NCBI GenBank assembly: GCA_030581615.1
Contig: JAKTTT010000001.1
Span: 682,001-746,000, forward strand
DNA length: 64,000 nucleotides
Source: Alloascoidea africana
Taxonomy: Eukaryota > Ascomycota > Alloascoideomycetes > Alloascoideales > Alloascoideaceae
Direction: 5' to 3'
Positions 21,285 to 63,700 of the stretch are shown in pieces; the stretch's first letter is position 1, and every line of letters starts with the position of its first letter. The notes under the pieces were generated by a model. It had not been told where the DNA came from. It ran no database searches and saw only the letters and a list, made by a program, of their open reading frames with translations. Both the position numbers and the translations under genes were made by a program.

Positions 21285-24200
21285 ATGGTTCCCGCTCTTT
21301 CAGAATGTCGTAGCTCCAGCGACGAGGAAGACGCTTATTCAACTGAACTTACTGTATTGGCTCCCTCTTTAGAGCCTTTGAATTTTTCAAACACTCTGGT
21401 GTTTTACATAAATGGCAAAAAGCAGACAGTTTGCAATCCCAATCCGGAAGGTACTCTATTGGATTATATCCGCTCAATTGGTCTCACGGGTACTAAGCTT
21501 GGATGCTCAGAAGGAGGATGTGGGGCATGCACGATTGTGGTTGGAACGTGGAATCGAGAAAAGAAAAAAACATTGTAAGGATTTTTGATCTAAACAAATG
21601 ATCACTTTTCGCTAATTCATATATTTAGCTATGCTGCTCTGAATTCATGCATTGTCCCTTTAATCGCCGTGGAGGGGAAGCATCTACTCACTGTTGAAGG
21701 AATAGGTTCATCTGAAGATCCACATCCGGTTCAGGAGAGAATTGCTAAATTCCATGGTTCTCAATGTGGATTTTGCACACCTGGAATAGTAATGAGCTTG
21801 TATGCTCTAATTAGGAATTCAAATGGGTCTCCAACGAAAGAGGAAATTATGGATTCTCTGGATGGGAATCTTTGTCGGTGTACTGGTTATCGTCCAATTA
21901 TCGACGCAGCAAACACTTTCAGTTGTGGACGTCCAGGAGGGTGCTGTCGAGAAAACAAAAAGAATAATTTGTGCTCAACTCCTTCAATGGGCAATGGTTT
22001 GGTTGATTCCAACGAAATCGATATGAACGGTCTGTATACTCCTAATGGTCATAAACTGAAACCATACAAAGCAAATTCGGAGATTATCTTTCCTCCGTAT
22101 TTGAAAAGACACATTAAACGACCATTATTTTATGGCAACGAACGAAAGATTTGGTTTAGACCGATTACAAAAGCACAGTTGTTGCTAATCAAACACGAAT
22201 ATCCTAATTGCAAGATTGTGGCTGGTGCCTCGGAAATCCAAATAGAGATAAAGTACAAGGCAATGAATTACAACGTTTCTGTTTTTGCAAACGACATTGA
22301 GGAATTAAAAAGTTTTAAATATATACCGGGGAAAGGAATAGAGTTTGGCTCAAACATTTCAATTTCGGATTTGGAGCATCACCTACATGATTTGATCAAG
22401 TCTTGTGAGGAAATGGGTACGGAACGACGAGTACAGCCTTTCAAGTGCATGCTTGAACAAATACGTTATTTTGCTGGGAGACAAATCAGAAATGCAGCTA
22501 CTCCTGCAGGGAACATAGCAACCGCGAGTCCCATATCTGATCTAAATCCTGTTTTCGTCGCTTGTGGGGCAGTATTAACTGTGGAATCACTTTCCAAAGG
22601 GGTTCAGACTTTGTCTATGGACGATTTTTTCATCTCTTATAGAAACACAAAGTTACCACCTCATGGCATAATAACCAAGGTTTTTGTACCTGAAGCAATA
22701 ACAGGGGATCACTTTGCAGCTTTTAAACAGTCGAAAAGGAAAGATGATGACATAGCCATTGTCACCACGTGTATGAAACTAAGTCATGATTCAAGTTTCA
22801 ACATCACAGATGCGAAACTTGTATTTGGAGGAATGGCTCCAATTACAAAAGCGGCAGTTAAAACAGGTGAATACTTGGTCGGGAAAAATCTTACAGACTC
22901 TTCGACATTGGAGAATGCGATAGATTGTTTATCGGCTGAGTTCAAACTGCCCTATTCTGTTCCTGGAGGTATGGCAACATATCGAAATACCCTAGTGCTA
23001 TCTTTTTTTTTCAAATTTTACAATCAAGTGTTGAAGAAACTCGATTTGGATTATGATTCTGATGCGATTCTCGAAGTGACTAGAAATCCAATGAAGGGTA
23101 TCAGGGATTTGTCAAATCCTTATGAACAAAGAGTCGTTGGTAAAAGTGAACCACATGCTGCTGCAATTAGACATGCGACGGGGGAAGCCCAGTATGTAGA
23201 TGATATACCTTCTACCAAAAATGAGCTTTTTGGGGTTCAGGTAATGTCGACAAAAGCACATGCGAGGATAGTATCGGTGGATCCATCAGAAGCTCTCAAG
23301 ATAGAAGGCGTTAATGGATATGTTGACATTAACGATGTGGTTTCGAAAGAAGGGAATATCTGGGGGAATCTCCCCTTTGGCAAAGAGCCTTTCTTCTGCG
23401 ATGGGGAGGTTTTTTACGTTGGTCAATGCATTGGAGTCGTGGTTGCAGAGGATCGAGAACGGGCTGCTGAAGGAGCTCGTGCAGTCAAGGTAGAGTACGA
23501 AGAATTGCCAGCGGTTATCACTATTGAAGATGCGATTGAGCAGAACAGCATTTGGGAAGATTTTCGGACTGTAGTGAAGGGGGAAGAAAATTTGGAACAT
23601 GTTTTCTCCCAATCTCGTCATGTTTTCGAAGGGACTACGAGATTTGGAGCACAGGAGCATTTTTATCTTGAATCACAGGCCACTTTAGCAGTCCCTGAAG
23701 AATTTGGTGAGATGAAGTTGTATTGTTCTACACAGAATCCGACTGAGACACAACTGTGCGTTTCAAGAGTAACAGGTGTACCAGCTTCACGAATAGTGGT
23801 CCGTGTGAAAAGACTTGGAGGAGGATTTGGAGGTAAAGAGTCGAGAAGTGTACAGGTATCTGGGGTTGCAGCTGTGGCTGCTCGAAAGTACAAAAAGCCA
23901 GTTCGAATGGTTTTAAACCGATCTGAAGATATGCTTAGTTCGGGACAACGACATCCTTTTCTTATAAAGTGGAAAGTTGGTCTTGATGAAAACCTAAAGT
24001 TTACAGCTCTTCAAGCTTATCTTTATGCCAATGCTGGATGGTCAATGGATCTTACACGGGGGGTTATTGATCGAGCAGTGCTCCATGTTGATAACTGTTA
24101 TTATTTCCCCAATGCATTTGTACAAGGGGTTCCATGTAGGACCAACACGGCTTCAAACACTGCTTTTAGAGGATTTGGTGGACCTCAAGGAATGTTTACA

Positions 24201-25439
24201 GCGGAATCGATTATAGTTGAGGTTTCGGAGAAACTTGGGGTTGATCCGGACACATTACGAGAGTTGAATTATTATCAAGAAGGGCAAACAACACATTATA
24301 AACAAAAGATTACAGAAGATTTTACAGTTCCAGATCTCGCGAAGCAGAATAAACAAGAGGCTGAGTATGACTTGCGTCGTCACCAAGTTGATGAGTTTAA
24401 CAAACGTCACAGGTGGATCAAACGTGGTCTAGCCCATGTTCCTACAAAGTTTGGAATTGCGTTTGGCAATGTTATCAGAGCACAGGCAGGAGCTCTTGTT
24501 CATATATACACAGATGGATCTATTCTGATAACACACGGTGGGACGGAAATGGGCCAAGGTTTACACACGAAAATGTCAATGGTGGCATCACAAGAACTTG
24601 GAGTTGAATTGGATGAGGTGTTGATATCCGAAACTGCCACAAATACCATTCCAAATACTTCTCCCACTGCAGCTTCATCATCCAGTGATGTTTACGGAAT
24701 GGCAGTTAAAAACGCATGTGATAAGTTGAATCAAAGACTAGCGCCTTATCGGGAAAAACTTGGCCCAAATGTGAATATGGAGCAAATGGCAAAAGCAGCG
24801 TATGCGGATCGAGTAAATCTTTCTGCCCAGGGGTTTTACATAGTTCCAGAGATTGGGTATGAATGGGGACATCCGAATCCCAAACCTCCATTTTTGTATT
24901 ACACACAAGGATCAGGGATCGCAATGGTTGAGATGAATGTTTTGACGGGCGATTGGGCCTGTTTACGGGCCGATATAAAGATGGATATAGGCCGAACGTT
25001 GAACCAAGCCATTGACTATGGTCAGATTGAAGGGGCTTTTGTTCAAGGCCAGGGACTTTTCACCATTGAGGAATCGTTATGGTTGAAAGATGGAACTCTG
25101 TTCACACGTGGGCCAGGGGCGTATAAGATACCTGGATTTCGGGATATTCCTCAAGAGTTTAACGTTAGTACGCTTTGTGATCGAGAATTCAAGCATTTAA
25201 AGACGATTTTCAGGAGTAAAGGGATTGGGGAACCTCCATTGTTTCTGGGATCTTCAGTTCTATTTGCATTAAGAGATGCATTAAACTATGCAAGAGGGGA
25301 ACAAGGGATTTGTGAAGTAATGAGTATGGCCAGTCCTTTGACGAGTGAGAAGATTCGGCTTTTCGTGGGTGATAAATTGCTCCGGAAGGGAACTGTCAAT
25401 CCTAGAGAAAATGAGAAAGCATTTTTTGTTACAGCATAG
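21285..25439 (+). CDS. XDH: Xanthine dehydrogenase, two exons
   Basis: Model join(21285..21574, 21629..25439), 1366 residues, the usual size for eukaryotic XDH. The 54-nt intron has donor GTAAGG, branch CTAATTC and acceptor TTTAG. Domains in order: N-terminal 2Fe-2S ferredoxin fold (GCSEGGCGACTIVV); second 2Fe-2S domain (CGFCTPG, GNLCRCTGYRP); FAD-binding domain (KIVAGASEIQIE, GNIATASPISDLNPV); molybdopterin domain (GGGFGGKESR, GQGLHTKM, SKGIGEPPLFLGS). Substrate-site residues typical of XDH rather than aldehyde oxidase are visible: Glu in HFYLESQATLAV and Arg in SNTAFRGFGGPQG, plus the catalytic Glu in GIGEPP. It oxidises hypoxanthine to xanthine and urate with NAD+, in purine catabolism. 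The start is the ATG at 21285, preceded by a TTG-led open stretch. Confidence 0.95.
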
Positions 25440-55385: not shown

Positions 55386-58300
55386 GGGAGATGGCGATAG
55401 TGATGAAAATGGAGAAGATGAGACCAGTGCTGTCTGGTCTAGACCTGCGATGGAGGTTTTCCAGCATAACCTCTTTACACTCGTTCGAAAAGTACAAAAG
55501 CCCCAAACCAAAAGGATCGGCTTTTGTTTCGTAGGAGGATCTTCACGAGGCCGTGCATGGCAAGCACGGGGAACTGAGAGCAAGAACAAGAGGAAGACCA
55601 GGAGTAGGAGTGAGACTGGGAATTGATATGGGAGTGCAAGCTCAAACCGGATAATCTTCCTGGGTCCGATCTCGCAGCGGGATTGCTTTGCGAATATCCT
55701 GGTCGTAGTCGTTGAAAGTGTGAAATTCATTTGGTCTATATCATCTATTCATTTTGTTAGGATTTGAATTGTACGCATTGGAGAAATCTACAGTGTATGT
55801 GTGCCTGGACCTAAACATGGAAAATGGACAAGGACTTAAGTTACACAAGCGTAGATTTTTGAACAGACAGTCGGCAGCGGTTTTGCAAACAGGCACAGAC
55901 ACAAATCACAAATCACAAATCACAAAACACAAAGCCCCCTTCTTTCCCCCGGCCGAATTACCAGTTTCAATGTTTGTTTTGATCCTCGTATAGATTGTAC
56001 CATTCTTTTCTTCCTTGAAAAAAAAAATGCGCAATGCTTGTCCCACAAGACAAGAAAAGACAAGACAAAAAGGAGGTGGAAGTAAGGCGAGGCTTGATTT
56101 CAAAACATTTTCTTGTGTCTGATATCGTTTCAGACCCTGTGTCTACTGTTCCTGATAGTATACAATTGAATAGCGTATTTTGTTAAAGTGTCAAGGGCAT
56201 TTCTTTTTTTTATCCATACAGAGGAGAAGCAAGTAGAAACACAGAGAACCCATCCACTTTGCAAACAGCCATCGCCAGCCTCGGTAAAATCATAGTCATC
56301 TTTATCGCAAGTCTGGACCTTATAGGTTGAGAGATAGACCTGGCATGGCTTTTTGCTCTTTGTACATGCATTGGGATAGTGTATGAATTTTTTGCTTCAT
56401 CTGGTAATATTCCACTTGTGCTGTAGACTCACCAGCATTACTAGGATAACTGGATTTTCATGACATGTCCCATCGCGAAAAATCAAAAGAGAGTGCGAAA
56501 AAATAGATTGAGTTGATTATACCCATAGCTTTGTGATGGTTACCATCTCGCTATTGATAGGTATACTTGCAAGTCTACTCGAGGAGAAGCACAAAGAGAA
56601 AAACCGTCATTTTTTAAATGTGAGATAAAAAGAAGGCGAATAGGAAAAGCCATCCATCTGGAAATTTCACAACCACGGGCATTGGGCCAAAAATTCAGAT
56701 CATGACTACTTGACTGGACGGAAAGCGAAGCATATGCCATGCGATCAGAAACTAGACTAGGATATGAAATGGATATCCAGGAAATGTCTCCTTGGCCTAA
56801 CCTTGAGCACCGCATGACCTGTGTTTGCCTTCTTTTTTTTTTTATAAAAAAAGAGTGGAGAAAGATAGTTGTCAAAAATGTTTTCCCATTGCTTTGGATA
56901 ATTACCAAGTGATGAGATACGACAATTGCAAAAGCATCAAAAAGAAATTCAAACGAGTCTAAAATACATTCAATTTTTTTTTCTTCACAGCCAATAATGT
57001 CTACCTACCTTTTACACTCTGAGTGTGGGTAAATGTGTGGGGAAAAGCTTCAGTATGAATTTTCTTGTCCAACAGTAAAGCAAAGTGCGATTGTATTTTA
57101 TTATGCCCATACATGTGGGTGGGGAGGATATGAGTATATAGCCAATATACTAGTTGTTCAAAACTCGATAAAAAGAGGAGAGGAATGAAGAGTGTAAAAA
57201 AGTAAAAAAGCAAAGTTCTATCCATTCAAGTGAAAATAATTAATCACTTTTAGACGAGCAAATAAAAACAGACATACAAATAAATAAATAAGTAATAAAA
57301 AAAATAGTAAGGCAGATCTGCGATAATAAATGTAGCACCGCCTATCGGTAGAAGCACAGAGAGTCGTCCTGTATATAATAGGCGACAACAAAAAAAACAA
57401 ACTAAAAGGACTAAACTTATGGAGAAGAGGTACGAAAGAATAATAAAGCTCATAATCAGCATAAAGATAAAGTCAAACATAAATGATAATTAATTATTTT
57501 TGTTTTTGTTGAACGCTTTGCTTTTCCGCTTACTGTCTATCTACATCTATTTTTTTTTTAGGGATTTTTTGCTGGTGGCTTGTAGCTTGTGTTCATTATG
57601 GATCTCTGACCGTTTGTGGCAAAAATCGCAGCTTTTAGTGTCCATCACCTCTATCATCTTCAGTCTGTGTATGATTTCCGATCGATCAATCGATCGATAA
57701 CACAAATCAAAAAAAGATAGGTCTCTTATGTGTGGTTCCAAAAATACCAGTAATCCGTATATATCCCATTCAACTCTTGTACCAACATCCAAAACGTTCA
57801 CTGCATATCCGTCAAGGAGGAAAAAGGAAGGGGCCAAGACTGGAGAATCGAAAATTATTGAATGGGGGAAGGGGGGAAAGAAGGAAAATGAGACGAAAAA
57901 CCAATCGCGAAGGGAAAGGTAATCTTAGGAGCTTTAACATATTCCCGAGGAGAGAAACACGCTTCTGGTGTCCGATTCCAATTTCGTCCCGCAATCCTTC
58001 GCTCGCACTCGTGGGTCCAGGATCCCATACTTGGCGTCTTTCCAACATCGCCAGCGCCAAGCTCAAGTTGAAGTTGAAGTTCAAGTTCAAGTTCAGGCTA
58101 TGCAAGAGCACGAGCACAAGTACAGACATGGACATGGACATGGACATATCTAGTGCGACCAACCAATCGATCGGGGATATCCAGAGGAGTGAGTCGGAAA
58201 TGCCTCCTCTTTCAAACGCAAACGCAGAGGGCAAAAAAAGATCTTCAACAAGTTGAAATATTGACACTTAGGGCTTAAGAAACCCCGAATGGATATTACC

Positions 58301-58811: not shown

Positions 58812-60725
58812 TTAATAGAACGGTGCAAATGGAATCAAACCTGCCTTTTTATAACCTTTTTCAATATTTTCCTTCGTCAGGGCAAAATACCGTGCTTTTT
58901 TCAAACACATGATCCATTCTTGTTTCATTACACGGGGTAAACCCATTGCCAACATTTCATCCATTTCATAGGCCATTCTATATTTCAAAGGACCAAAAAC
59001 ACTTAGATCTAGAGGTTGTAACATTTGTGAAGTACTTGGGGGCAATATCAACAGTTGAATGTTATGGGTTGCACAATAATCGAGAAAGTTGGATGTTATA
59101 TGTGTTGGATGTCCGTTATAAACAAGTAATCGGGTCTTGTGATTTGCCTTTAACCTTGTTGCTCTATCAAAAGAGTTTACAAGCCAGTCAAATAGAATAT
59201 GACTGCTTGTCCAGCCAGATTCACTACAGATGAATTGCCAGCTTTCATCTGTATCGTAGGGGAACCAGTTCCGATCAATGTATCGACCCTTAAACACTAT
59301 GTAAGGGTTTAGGGCTGTACGATCACCACAAATACATTCCAACTCTGTTATAATGTCCTCTCTGTGATGCTTTGCCTTAACTGTGCTATCAATAATAGCC
59401 CACCTTCTCTGGGATTCTCCAAGAATAAAACCTGTTTCATCAAGATTGTATACATTATCCTGCGTTATGCTGTATTTTGTAACGAGATATTCGTATCCTT
59501 TAAACCATCGTTTGAGAGCGGACTCTAGATATACACCAGTACGGTTTTTATCAATTGATTGACACAGATGAGAAGGCAGTTCTGTGTGACGTTTGAGGAA
59601 CCTCTGGATCCAGGCTTTACACGTCTTGTAGTCCGGTATTGTGGAAACGTGTGAAGATGAAAGGCCGTTTGCACCAGGTACGAGATTTTGGCTATGGGCA
59701 TGATGATTATGATGGCCGTTGAGACCACTGGCGGTGGAGTTTGAGCCAGCACCACCATTGGATCTATCGAAGAGAGAACCTACGGATCCACCGTTCGAGT
59801 GTGGAGCAGTTGGAGGAGGTGGCACGACCACCATGCCATTACCGTTCCCGTTGATTATGTGTCCGTTTTCGTTAATGTCGACTATCCGGTAGTCATCGCC
59901 GTAGCCGTTTGTTGTAGAGGCCTGGTGGACGAGACCCGGATCCGAAAACGAATTGATGTCGTTTGTGAGAACGTTGGGGGTCATATCTGCGTAGCCGTAG
60001 GCACTGGAAGAAGGCACGTAGGATGAGTATCTGTTGTTGTTTGTGGTGGAGCTTGTATTTGAGTTTGAGTTTGAGTTGGAATAGGAGCTTGAGCTTGAAT
60101 TTGAGCTTGGATAGTAACCTCCTCCTGTGTGGGACGAGGAAGAGGAAACTGAAGGATTTGTCATTGGCATTGAGGATGTGCCATAAACTCCAGCACCGTT
60201 TGAGTATCCTGAGAGTCCCAACTGGTGTTGATGGGACATATTGGGGTAGGCCGTGGGGTAGTAATAGGGACTAACGTTTTGGTGGCCGGGGGCTCCTGGT
60301 GCTCCTCCAGCACTGTATGAATTGCGAGGAGAAGAGGATGAGGAGGAGTAGTGGGAGAGCTGGGGAGATGAGGCAAGAGCCGGGGCAGCTGAAGGGGAAT
60401 CTGCTCTGGTGACTCGCTTGTTGATGATCTCTTTGACGAGTTCGTAGATGTGTCGATAAGTGCACGGATAACCACCAGCTGAGAGGGTTGCAACATACTG
60501 GACAAGCAGCCGTTCCTCGTTCATGGAGAGCAATTCCTCTTGCTGATGGGAGTTTGCGGGCTCTTTTGTCTTACGTCCCTTGACTCTGAAGTAGAGGGTT
60601 GTGTAGGGGATTCCATGGGCCCGAGCAGCGTCTTTGATGTTGGCATGGACGCCCTTTCCGAGCTCTGTGATGGCTGTTTTGATGCTCATCTCTCTTGGAG
60701 AGTTGACGTTTTTGACGGCGACCAT
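58812..60725 (-). CDS. CENP-B-like protein derived from a pogo/Fot1 transposase
   Basis: A 637-residue intact frame. N-terminal psq-type helix-turn-helix at about 12-52 (KDAARAHGIPYTTLYFRVKG); CENP-B/Tc5-type DNA-binding half at about 62-107; about 250 residues of Ser/Asn/Gly/Tyr-rich sequence (108-360); the second half of the same domain (KAWIQRFLKRHTELPSHL, 370-387); then a DDE_1 domain (about 418-580). Catalytic positions: Asp429 in NLDETGF, then Asn537 where LLxxDGHxSH is expected (here LLVYNGHPTH), then Asp573 in LQPLDLSVFGPLK. The 35-residue spacing between the last two is exactly that of Fot1 (DD35D). Asn at the second position should abolish transposition. Known domesticated relatives are CENP-B and fission-yeast Abp1/Cbh1/Cbh2. 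No flanking terminal repeats were found. It has regulator-style wide gaps on both sides. Probable role: DNA-binding chromatin or transcription factor (inference). Confidence 0.9.
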   Translation of the reverse strand: MVAVKNVNSPREMSIKTAITELGKGVHANIKDAARAHGIPYTTLYFRVKGRKTKEPANSHQQEELLSMNEERLLVQYVATLSAGGYPCTYRHIYELVKEIINKRVTRADSPSAAPALASSPQLSHYSSSSSSPRNSYSAGGAPGAPGHQNVSPYYYPTAYPNMSHQHQLGLSGYSNGAGVYGTSSMPMTNPSVSSSSSHTGGGYYPSSNSSSSSYSNSNSNSNTSSTTNNNRYSSYVPSSSAYGYADMTPNVLTNDINSFSDPGLVHQASTTNGYGDDYRIVDINENGHIINGNGNGMVVVPPPPTAPHSNGGSVGSLFDRSNGGAGSNSTASGLNGHHNHHAHSQNLVPGANGLSSSHVSTIPDYKTCKAWIQRFLKRHTELPSHLCQSIDKNRTGVYLESALKRWFKGYEYLVTKYSITQDNVYNLDETGFILGESQRRWAIIDSTVKAKHHREDIITELECICGDRTALNPYIVFKGRYIDRNWFPYDTDESWQFICSESGWTSSHILFDWLVNSFDRATRLKANHKTRLLVYNGHPTHITSNFLDYCATHNIQLLILPPSTSQMLQPLDLSVFGPLKYRMAYEMDEMLAMGLPRVMKQEWIMCLKKARYFALTKENIEKGYKKAGLIPFAPFY

Positions 60726-63700
60726 GTTTTTCCGTCCGGGTTATAATAGAATATGGAGATTAATTGTTGGATTCAGCAGAAGGACTGGGGCATTAGCCAG
60801 GATACGAAGGCTGGATCTTGGAGCTTTGGAGTGTTGGACGAGAAACCGCAGTCTGGAGAAAAACGAGCACGAGCCGGCTATTATATCATTTTCAAAAACA
60901 AGAACAGAATCAAAAAAGAAAAAGAAAAAGAAAAAGAAAAAGAAAAAGAAAAGGATTCGCTTCTTGTTGTATGTTCCTCTGCAGCTGCGCATTTACGACG
61001 GAACGTCATGCTCGTCGCCGAAACAGGCTCCCGCCGCACAGGCGCAGCGCGTGTGCACTGCAGCGCACTGCACTGCACCACATGCAACTGCATATACCGT
61101 GCACTGTGACAATGCACATGTGGACGTGCAGGTCCGCTTCTCTCTCTCCTTCTCTCTCTCTCTCTCACGTGCGTCTGCGGGTGCGCGTGGGAGGCCTCCG
61201 CAGACCGTTGCGATAATAGAAGTGCGAGCAAGAGTGCGAACAAAAGTGAAGAGGCTACAAGTAGTACAGTAGAGACAGAGATAACTGGGAGAATAGTGGT
61301 CCACAAGAGAAATGGGGCTTGTCGCGCTAAGCGCTGGTGGCCGTGGCTCTATGTTTCGCGGTCTGTGTTTGTGTTGGAGCCGGTGGTAGCTGTTGGCGGT
61401 TAGCAGTTAGTAGCTGTTTGCTGTGAACGAGAATGTGGACACAGCTTTTCTCCAAACAATGGGATTCTTTCTGGGGCTTGGCCTGAAATCATGAAAAGCG
61501 CATCAAGTAGTTCATGTCCTAACACTTTGATCCATCTTGTATTTCACGGACTCCGGAGCCCAGAGCCAGAGCCCAAGCCGGAGTCGCACTAGATACACTA
61601 CGATTTTCTGACAGGAATGGGCCGTGAGCTTTTTAGATATCTACTTGTTAACTCAACGATCCGAAGCTTCCAAAATGTGGAAAATAAATTTGAACCTCGT
61701 GGTAAGATGAGAAAAATAGACCCAATAAAAGTAAAAGATACAGCATAAAATTCGATGGTCAGATCTAGAAGCAAACAATACCAAAAAAAAAAAAAAAAAG
61801 AAAGATCAAAAGGTCCAATTTTTTTTCACATCTTATACCGTTCCATCATGTCATCGTTCGGTAAATGTCAAAAATTACACGCCATTTGGGACTGAAAGAA
61901 TGGAAGAGGTGGTTGTGTCGGAGCGAGTGAGTGAGTGAGTGAGTAAACCCATAGCCAACTCCACGTTGCACTTCATCCATCCTGTGAAGAGCAGCTAAAA
62001 AACAGAAACAGTAGATCGAAAACGGGCTGGCGTTGGCCATCGCTTATCGGTCTACACTTTTGTATTCTCAATTGAGTTTACCAACTCTTTCTCTCAGAGA
62101 CCAGTACTAGTAGTATCGGTGCTGTGCTGAGCTGAGCTGAGCTTGCCAGTTGTGTCCACTCGTTCATCCATCGGAGCCAAATCCTGTCTCGAGCATCAAT
62201 CCTTGGTGACTTTTCCTCTTTTCTTTTCACAATTGTGCAAATCTCTTACTAGTCCCGCCATGGCTTAAAATTGTTTTTCCATAAAAAGTAGAAACTCACC
62301 TTTAGAACCAGGATCTTTTCCCTTTTCCCTTTTCCCTTTTCGCTTTTTACCCTTTTCGCTCAACCTCTTGTCTTCTCTCCTATAGTCTGTGACACATAAG
62401 CTCCTGTTCTTCCCACGAGGAAAATAAGAATATTATTCACGTAGATGTACTCTCCTGAAAAGTCCCTTGAAATATTAACATCAAGGAGCCTCGTAGATAC
62501 AATGAACAAAATACCATGGGTGGAATTGAACAAAAAATCCTGTAAAAATAAACGGGATCTCCACTATCAAATACTCGGCTCTACCAACCAACCAACCAAT
62601 ATATACATTTTTAATCCTTGTCATTAGGCCCTCCACTATCAGTCCAGTCACTCAACTCTTGTCATTATATTTTTTCAAAACTATTTATTTTTACTTATAC
62701 TCCCTTTTTTTTTTGGCTCTCTCAGTAGAAGAAAAACAATAAATAATAAATATTTGACAAAAAATAAACGGGGTATAGTGTCAATATGGCTCATTGTCAA
62801 GCGGGATTAGCTGGGGGAAGGCCAAAAAAAAAGAGCATTGATCTACCTATTTTGTCTTTTTCTCCACCGCTTAACAATTTTTTTCCCTTTAATTTCATTC
62901 ATTTTCAATTTTTTCTTTTAGGTTTATTCCAATTCTCTCAACTTCTGCTTATGAACCTTTCCTAAATTCTACAAAAGATTGTAAATAAATGTGTGGCTTT
63001 TGTTCTTTTACTTTCTTTTTCTAATGGATGATGCTTAACAAGTCTGCACAAAGATTGTTGATGATCGATCGATCGATCGTCACTGCATAGGGCTAAACTC
63101 AGTAAAAAGATTCGTCTTTTTCGTTTCATCATCATCGGCTGTTTCACAGGCCAAAAAGCAAAAAGCCGGTGGAAAAGTCTTCTCTTTCTATTGTATGTAT
63201 TTGTCTATCTTTCTATCTGCCTGACAGAACCTCCTCCCCTCCCTTCTCCATCCTTATTTTCATGACCACTGTGGTGTCTTTTATAGCTAGAAATTTGCCG
63301 CAGTCCTGTAATATTTTTTTTTTTAAGTATATCCCGGATTGCTGGAGGCCTGTAAACGTTCAAACAAAACCTCCTGCTGTGCTCCCCTGTGCTGATGCTC
63401 ACACACGAGAGAGTCTGCCGGAGTAAGCTACTCCTCCTCCATGTCTAATCCCAACTCCGACTCGCGATTGAGATTCAAATTCAAATTCAGATTCCAATAT
63501 CTAAACCTATCCACGCGGTTCTTAATGACCTCAAACAGACACCCCAGGGTTGATCTCCCGATCGTACAGCTCCAATCCGAACCGCCAGCGGTGTAGAAAA
63601 GCAAGAAGCTGTGTCTTTGCATCTTCTCACGCAAGACTCGATATTTCATTATCGTTAACGCCATCATCATCACCAAACCCTCGCCTTTCTAACTTTTCTC

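Follow-up and report, generated by a model that had tools for sequence, protein, structure and literature searches.

The window analysed here, 64,000 nucleotides of Alloascoidea africana, spans positions 682001-746000 of a 1.24-Mb contig (JAKTTT010000001.1) in a genome of 23.2 Mb assembled in 138 contigs. On its minus strand, at 58812-60725, lies one open reading frame (ORF) of 637 codons with no internal stop, hereafter P1, which encodes a protein derived from a Fot1/pogo transposase. An initial annotation made from the letters had described this unbroken frame, though not its strand, and the domains that it named, a psq-type helix-turn-helix (HTH), a CENP-B-type domain and a DDE_1 domain, are recovered by Pfam, the first just above its cut-off and the second as a tail below it. 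The features of the gene are as follows.

58812-60725, minus strand: Fot1/pogo-derived gene of 637 codons, catalytically incomplete (D-N-D), from the ORF, Pfam and the paralogue alignment.
60570-60653, minus strand: core of the first HTH (psq type), residues 25-52, 28 of 28 columns invariant in three paralogues, from Pfam and the paralogue alignment.
60414-60545, minus strand: first half of the CENP-B/Tc5-type HTH, residues 61-104, 22 of 44 columns invariant, from alignment with paralogues having an unbroken HTH_Tnp_Tc5.
59637-60413, minus strand: Ser/Gly/Asn-rich insert, residues 105-363, from the paralogue alignment, with no consensus in-frame intron candidate.
59571-59636, minus strand: second half of the CENP-B/Tc5-type HTH, residues 364-385, 16 of 22 columns invariant, with the motif WxxRFxKRH, from Pfam and the paralogue alignment.
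59439-59441, minus strand: Asp429, first catalytic position, retained, from the sequence and the paralogue alignment.
59115-59117, minus strand: Asn537 (AAC), second catalytic position, Asp lost, Asn in three of three N-group members, from the sequence and the paralogue alignment.
59007-59009, minus strand: Asp573, third catalytic position, retained, from the sequence and the paralogue alignment.
58851-59348, minus strand: DDE_1 domain, residues 460-625, Pfam match.

The DDE_1 match is strong (E=1.5e-25, 90.2 bits, cut-off 22). The catalytic positions read as had been claimed, by codons and by alignment, with Asp429 and Asp573 both encoded by GAT and 35 residues separating position 537 from 573. 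Standard translation is valid, with CTG as Leu, since in the CCT-beta frame of the window the best solved match has Leu at four of the five CTG codons and Val at the remaining one. No HTH_ABP1_N domain (PF18107) was matched in the protein up to E=1, HTH_psq being present instead. A search by sequence for relatives of solved structure gave five matches (E 0.15-0.53), none a transposase; among viral contigs, 16 pattern matches included no real relative; and a single-sequence structure prediction of residues 363-637 was unusable (mean predicted local distance difference test score, pLDDT, 35.6).

Relatives in the genome and constraint between paralogues

The gene is not alone in its genome, but belongs to a family with two close paralogues. 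A six-frame search gave at least 27 matching stretches and a DDE_1 family search at least 19, both counts being lower bounds that include relics and fragments of single genes. Thirteen long open frames with DDE_1-type sequence, taken from both lists, were aligned, and a tree was made of these and two relic pieces, with no named Fot1, Cbp1 or Lemi sequence in it. P1 and two genes of contig C12 (C12a and C12b) form the N group (support 99/99). The C12 paralogues, of 669 and 584 residues, are open frames with Asn at the second catalytic position, the 35-residue spacing and an insert at the matching site, and P1 shares 51-61% identity with them, depending on the alignment. Asn is conserved in all three members and Asp is restored in none, which answers the doubt that other copies might have kept it.

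In all three members the synonymous sites are close to exhausted. Both NG86 and YN00 fail on the whole-gene synonymous distance of the three N-group pairs, and the maximum-likelihood distance runs to 10.6-16.0. At fourfold-degenerate sites of conserved residues the identity is 0.352 (n=91), 0.333 (n=75) and 0.276 (n=76), against 0.272, 0.279 and 0.256 expected at full saturation, and the Jukes-Cantor 95% lower bounds over whole-protein fourfold sites are 0.98, 1.01 and 1.28. Over residues 363-637, identity is nevertheless 62-71% (195, 171 and 186 of 275) and the nonsynonymous distance (dN) 0.205, 0.288 and 0.241, and the ratio of nonsynonymous to synonymous distance (omega) is at most about 0.21, 0.29 and 0.19, a bound that divides the dN of this one region by the whole-protein fourfold distance. 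Columns invariant in all three proteins make up 28 of 28 at residues 25-52, 141 of 252 at 386-637 and 22 of 259 in the insert. Purifying selection acts on the protein, as the comparison between paralogues shows, and the direction is clear that three copies sharing the lost Asp have, judging from these distances, kept open and constrained frames for a long time. The initial annotation had read a frame kept without catalysis as a sign of selection for DNA binding; of this, the constraint is borne out through the paralogues, while DNA binding as the selected trait is what we infer.

A second set of relatives, the K group (C17, C14, C6 and C1:405k; support 100/100), has S/T-D-K in the catalytic columns of all four members, with 32 residues between the last two. 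One pair of it, C17 and C14, shares about 160 bases upstream of the start and gives by YN00 a dN of 0.161, a synonymous distance of 1.22 and an omega of about 0.13; for the other five of the six pairs neither NG86 nor YN00 gave a measurable value. A separate clade (100/99) holds C29:114k, C92, C57 and C2, the first three of which we take to be Pdc2-like from an apparent resemblance to Pdc2 of Saccharomyces cerevisiae and from the Pfam domains of C29:114k (L045), the one Pdc2-like protein scanned, in which HTH_Tnp_Tc5 and DDE_1 are matched. P1 falls on the side of the two transposon relics, apart from the Pdc2-like clade, with long branches and an unresolved order within that side, where C31, C29t (C29:86k) and both relics stay unplaced within the Fot-like part; four branches of the tree are long, and the program warns of false joins. 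The Fot-like part comprises nine long frames, eight of them without D-D-D, and the remaining four frames make up the separate, partly Pdc2-like clade. Beside the D-N-D of the N group (three of three), the triad reads D-S-E in C31, D-D-D in C29t, D-D-S in the three Pdc2-like frames and D-D-V in C2, the letters of the distant rows (C31, C2 and Pdc2-like) resting on weak alignment; D-D-D is thus lost in 12 of the 13 frames, by differing substitutions. The genes outside the N group are given below.

L011:3737-5086, L012:3496-4857, L014:3221-5197 and L019:2778-5015: K-group genes, from the alignment.
L045:3177-5852, L046:2848-5475 and L047:2310-4775: three long Pdc2-like frames, D-D-S, from the alignment and the tree.

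The K members C6 and C1:405k carry long low-complexity inserts within the DDE region and at the C terminus, which the other two do not have. At L018:2656-4260 a Pfam scan finds a gene with both HTH domains and no DDE_1 match.

A DNA-binding regulator and the alternatives

We consider P1 to be a domesticated Fot-type pogo transposase, most likely non-cutting and most likely a sequence-specific DNA-binding regulator, a reading to which we give a probability of roughly two in three. Within it, a role as transcription regulator is ranked first as the most likely, and a chromatin role like that of Cbp1 second. A regulator that recruits other factors is suggested because the first DNA-binding domain is invariant, the DDE fold is kept, the Asp is lost and the low-complexity loop is variable.

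Among the alternatives, the one that survives best, though we hold it to be unlikely, is a chromatin protein of the CENP-B/Cbp1 (Abp1/Cbh1/Cbh2) type, which would bind centromeres or replication origins or would silence transposon remnants, including the Fot-type non-autonomous elements of this genome. The class of architecture, two HTHs followed by a degenerate DDE domain, matches. The fission-yeast Cbp1 family (Cbp1/Abp1, Cbh1, Cbh2 and Cbt1-7) is likewise a small family of domesticated pogo transposases, several with degenerate triads, and its Schizosaccharomyces pombe proteins bind the long terminal repeats of retrotransposons and repress these elements (PMC10085805). Terminal repeats of the Fot type also persist, one relic terminal-repeat end having 37 genome matches at up to three mismatches, against none for a reversed control; by manual count the 37 comprise 11 inward pairs at a distance of 1.09-1.15 kb, one pair at 0.27 kb and 13 single matches. 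However, the Cbp1 family is reported as derived from Lemi, and the available text mentions no large insert in the CENP-B domain of Cbp1 (PMC10085805), whereas P1 is Fot-like, with a psq-type first domain and the 35-residue spacing; HTH_ABP1_N is the domain given together with Abp1/Cbh (PMC10799480). P1 also stands apart from the Pdc2-like clade, in a tree lacking Cbp1, Lemi and named Fot sequences, and its long Ser/Asn/Gly-rich insert fits the recruitment of transcription factors at least equally well.

The insert itself might be an unspliced intron, the real protein then having a compact CENP-B-type domain. With 259 residues (105-363; Ser 22.4%, Gly 11.6%, Asn 11.2%) it comes close to the 250 or so of the initial annotation, and it splits the domain as described there. 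In the N group it sits between the first part of HTH_Tnp_Tc5 and the WxxRFxKRH helix, in a domain that is continuous in the K group; in C17, HTH_Tnp_Tc5 is unbroken at residues 66-132 (23.6 bits, cut-off 22.2). In spite of this, we regard an intron as very unlikely. A consensus scan of the three N-group genes found no in-frame splice candidate, although a non-consensus intron would escape it, and the insert, of 259, 277 and 176 residues, keeps the reading frame in each gene. The insert alignment of P1 with C12a beats 499 of 500 local shuffles and that of C12a with C12b beats 483 of 500; SSPRxSYS and DYRxxDIxENGxIxNG are common to P1 and C12a, PDYR occurs in both C12 inserts and DYR in all three. 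On the simplest reading of these alignments, the insert would be an old, fast-evolving and translated part of the protein that predates the N-group duplications, and it is probably disordered, to judge from its composition.

A slimmer chance still is that P1 is a recently dead transposon whose frame is open by chance. It is transposase-derived, it has lost a catalytic Asp as has the relic C58, and it is flanked by a perfect 13-bp inverted pair, 0.65 kb beyond its stop and 0.86 kb ahead of its start. Against this, three copies with the identical lesion stayed open while their fourfold sites neared saturation, no near copies were found, and the multi-copy relics of the genome have clear inverted ends. 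In fact, a genome DNA search for near-identical copies returned none, its matches being P1 and two blocks, 69-71% identical, that belong to one paralogue. No terminal repeats of Fot length were found around the gene within flanks of 1.5 kb, so that the earlier claim of no visible terminal repeats stands but for the 13-bp pair. The best inverted flank scores are 13 for P1, 11 and 9 for its paralogues and 10-12 for seven other tested genes, against 51, 37, 17 and 19 for relic controls, all four of which exceed all 60 shuffles, their positions having been set from ends already seen in sequence comparison. The count of near-identical copies with terminal repeats that had been proposed as a check thus comes to none for the gene, while the relic controls show their ends. 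Segmental duplication as the source of the N-group copies was rejected, no homology outside the genes being found by blastn among the three stretches of 9.5-10 kb.

The multi-copy relics of this genome do look like transposons. Those on C137, C5, C13 and C79 belong to one Fot-type family, are 86-89% identical over 1.0-1.2 kb and have inverted ends; at the protein level the match covers just the N-terminal part, ending near the first catalytic position, and in three of the four it contains a stop.

L022:2707-3852, L023:3307-4471, L024:873-1987 and L025:3384-4477: Fot-type elements of about 1.1 kb with N-terminal DNA-binding remnants and inverted ends, most starting TAACGT, from sequence comparison.

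The copies of a second relic family, on C16 and C10, are 91% identical over 1,040 bp and 90% over 484 bp; the one on C16 has D-D-D with 35 residues between the last two (manual count). Least probable of all is a transposase that is active, or was until recently, with Asn still supporting metal-dependent cutting: Asp at the first and third positions and the 35-residue spacing are kept, but the motif around Asn varies among the N-group members (NGHPTH, NGRPTH and NGNPMY), the His of PSHMTH in the C16 relic is replaced in them by Ser, Ser and Gly, and neither Fot-length inverted ends nor near copies were found around the three genes.

Several observations weigh against our preference for a domesticated DNA-binding regulator. 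The HTH_psq match is marginal (20.9 bits, cut-off 20.4, E=2.9e-4), and HTH_Tnp_Tc5 is represented by a tail alone at residues 370-383 (profile 50-62 of 66; E=0.19, below cut-off), a reduction to 13 positions that arises because the insert splits the domain; the first half of this domain is moderately conserved, at 22 of 44 columns. The insert evolves fast (dN 0.93-1.25), and its alignment between P1 and C12b beats 333 of 500 local shuffles, 167 reaching it, which is no better than chance. With synonymous sites near saturation omega is an upper bound and no estimate, and the constraint rests on three sequences of one genome. The relic C58, with three stops and no DNA relative among the loci compared, reads Y-E-D by eye, and a broken triad alone is therefore no mark of domestication. 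Conversely, the 739-residue Fot-like frame C29t (L017:3258-5477, at about 86 kb of C29) has D-D-D and the 35-residue spacing; its inverted flank score is matched by 11 of 60 shuffles, and it is possibly a gene domesticated with catalysis kept, or else an old element. Lastly, the score of the 13-bp pair is reached by none of 60 shuffles, and the pair could be worn terminal repeats. The rough chance of a perfect 13-mer between two 1.5-kb flanks is about 0.03 and ten genes were tested, and since this is compatible with chance we count the pair neither way.

The pair, TATCTAGTGCGAC, flanks the gene at 58147-58159 (plus strand) and 61583-61595 (minus strand) and occurs nowhere else in the genome; it may be due to chance, to worn terminal repeats or to kept binding sites. 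As a terminal repeat it was rejected, being unique in the genome and having, at up to three mismatches, two and three matches in the paralogue stretches, numbers reached by 73 and 40 of 200 shuffles. The window has three matches at up to two mismatches, reached by 5 of 100 shuffles. Between 57000 and 63000 there are 39 inverted pairs of at least 14 nt, and among the 25 listed the longest are of low complexity, for example a pair of 39 nt (72%), an arm of which falls within the gene.

For the regulator that we prefer, we infer loss of cutting, DNA binding, dimerisation, the disorder and role of the loop, transcriptional function and the order of events, and propose the following course. The second catalytic Asp would have changed to Asn in an ancestor, before the duplications that gave the three-member family, and this ancestor would also have gained, before those duplications, the insert between the two halves of the CENP-B-type HTH. 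The psq-type and CENP-B-type HTHs may bind a bipartite site inherited from the old transposon end, the DDE fold would remain as a scaffold that perhaps serves dimerisation, and transcription or chromatin factors would be recruited by the disordered loop. A disordered activation part in a yeast regulator has a precedent in Pdc2 (PMC10246790), and the repression of retrotransposons by a pogo-derived protein has one in Cbp1 (PMC10085805).

Genomic setting

Since neighbouring frames match host-type Pfam families, the locus is part of a host chromosome. Of the other frames of the window, 18 were scanned and 13 have a Pfam match (E 1e-5); the matches include Nup192, CCT-beta (TCP-1 family), PGAP1, a mannosyltransferase (Glyco_transf_15), TANGO2 and an enzyme of the xanthine-dehydrogenase type. 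At 21669-25439, on the plus strand, the window encodes a molybdopterin enzyme of the xanthine-dehydrogenase/aldehyde-oxidase type, a type uncommon in budding yeasts. Highly regulated genes typically have long upstream regions, and the promoter-like region noted in the initial annotation is a fair description: in the roughly 10 kb upstream of the start (C1:743272-753030, examined as two loci cut at C1:744900), the sole frame of at least 100 residues beginning with ATG has 111, although spliced genes would escape such a scan.

Known pogo-derived proteins and significance

Domesticated pogo proteins such as CENP-B, Cbp1 and the TIGD genes are textbook cases, and Pdc2 is itself a pogo-type protein. 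The class is therefore already known, and the gene described here adds a variant to it. The Fot and Fot-like pogo transposons (Fot1, Fotyl) combine psq-type and Tc5/CENP-B-type HTHs with DDE_1 and a 35-residue spacing, an arrangement that P1 appears to share, and these domain types and DD35D are given for Fot, DD35D also being given for Passer (PMC7386202). In contrast to Fot, P1 has Asn in place of the second Asp and an insert of 259 residues, and neither terminal repeats of Fot length nor near copies were found. In Pdc2, a regulator of S. cerevisiae and Candida glabrata, the DNA-binding part is N-terminal and the activation part is disordered (PMC10246790). Accordingly, the insert, which had been called unusual for the family, is so in its position inside the CENP-B-type domain and not in its disorder as such. 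The Pdc2-like proteins of this genome differ from P1 in their clade and in their D-D-S triad; their long low-complexity part lies at the C terminus, whereas that of the N group lies inside the DNA-binding domain, and the first domain of L045 is weakly HTH_ABP1_N-like (18.2 bits, below the cut-off of 22.5). Mammalian CENP-B and vertebrate TIGD, POGK and JRK are likewise pogo-derived host genes (PMC7386202, PMC10085805), but are reported to come from the pogoR, Tigger and Passer families, not from Fot (PMC10085805).

How domesticated pogo genes arose in fungi has received less scrutiny (PMC10085805), and the rate of transposon co-option is reported to be higher in Saccharomycotina (PMC10799480). 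No Fot-derived domesticated gene of a budding yeast was found in the available parts of the literature searched (PMC10799480, PMC10246790, PMC10085805, PMC7386202, PMC5014426, PMC7325037, PMC5499181), although the tables of PMC10799480 may hold such genes. What is new is a Fot-like family in a budding-yeast-like genome, beside Fot-type remnants, the described cases deriving from Lemi, pogoR, Tigger and Passer as far as these sources go.

Tentatively, and with the odds slightly against it, we may hypothesize that the frames represent a lineage-specific family of regulators built from Fot-type transposases, in which the triads failed differently (D-N-D, S/T-D-K, and D-S-E in C31) and low-complexity segments were acquired at sites that differ between lineages, in the CENP-B-type domain of the N group and in the DDE region and C terminus of two of the four K members. 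If this is true, the genome would hold a natural series from transposon relics via DDE-containing proteins to C6:333k, with two DNA-binding domains only, recording the passage from transposase to transcription regulator. A Fot-like family beside Fot-type remnants lets one ask which parts of a transposase the host keeps after cutting is lost. P1 retains its first DNA-binding domain and a large part of the DDE fold; it has lost one catalytic residue and the terminal repeats, and it carries a low-complexity loop of 259 residues within a DNA-binding domain.

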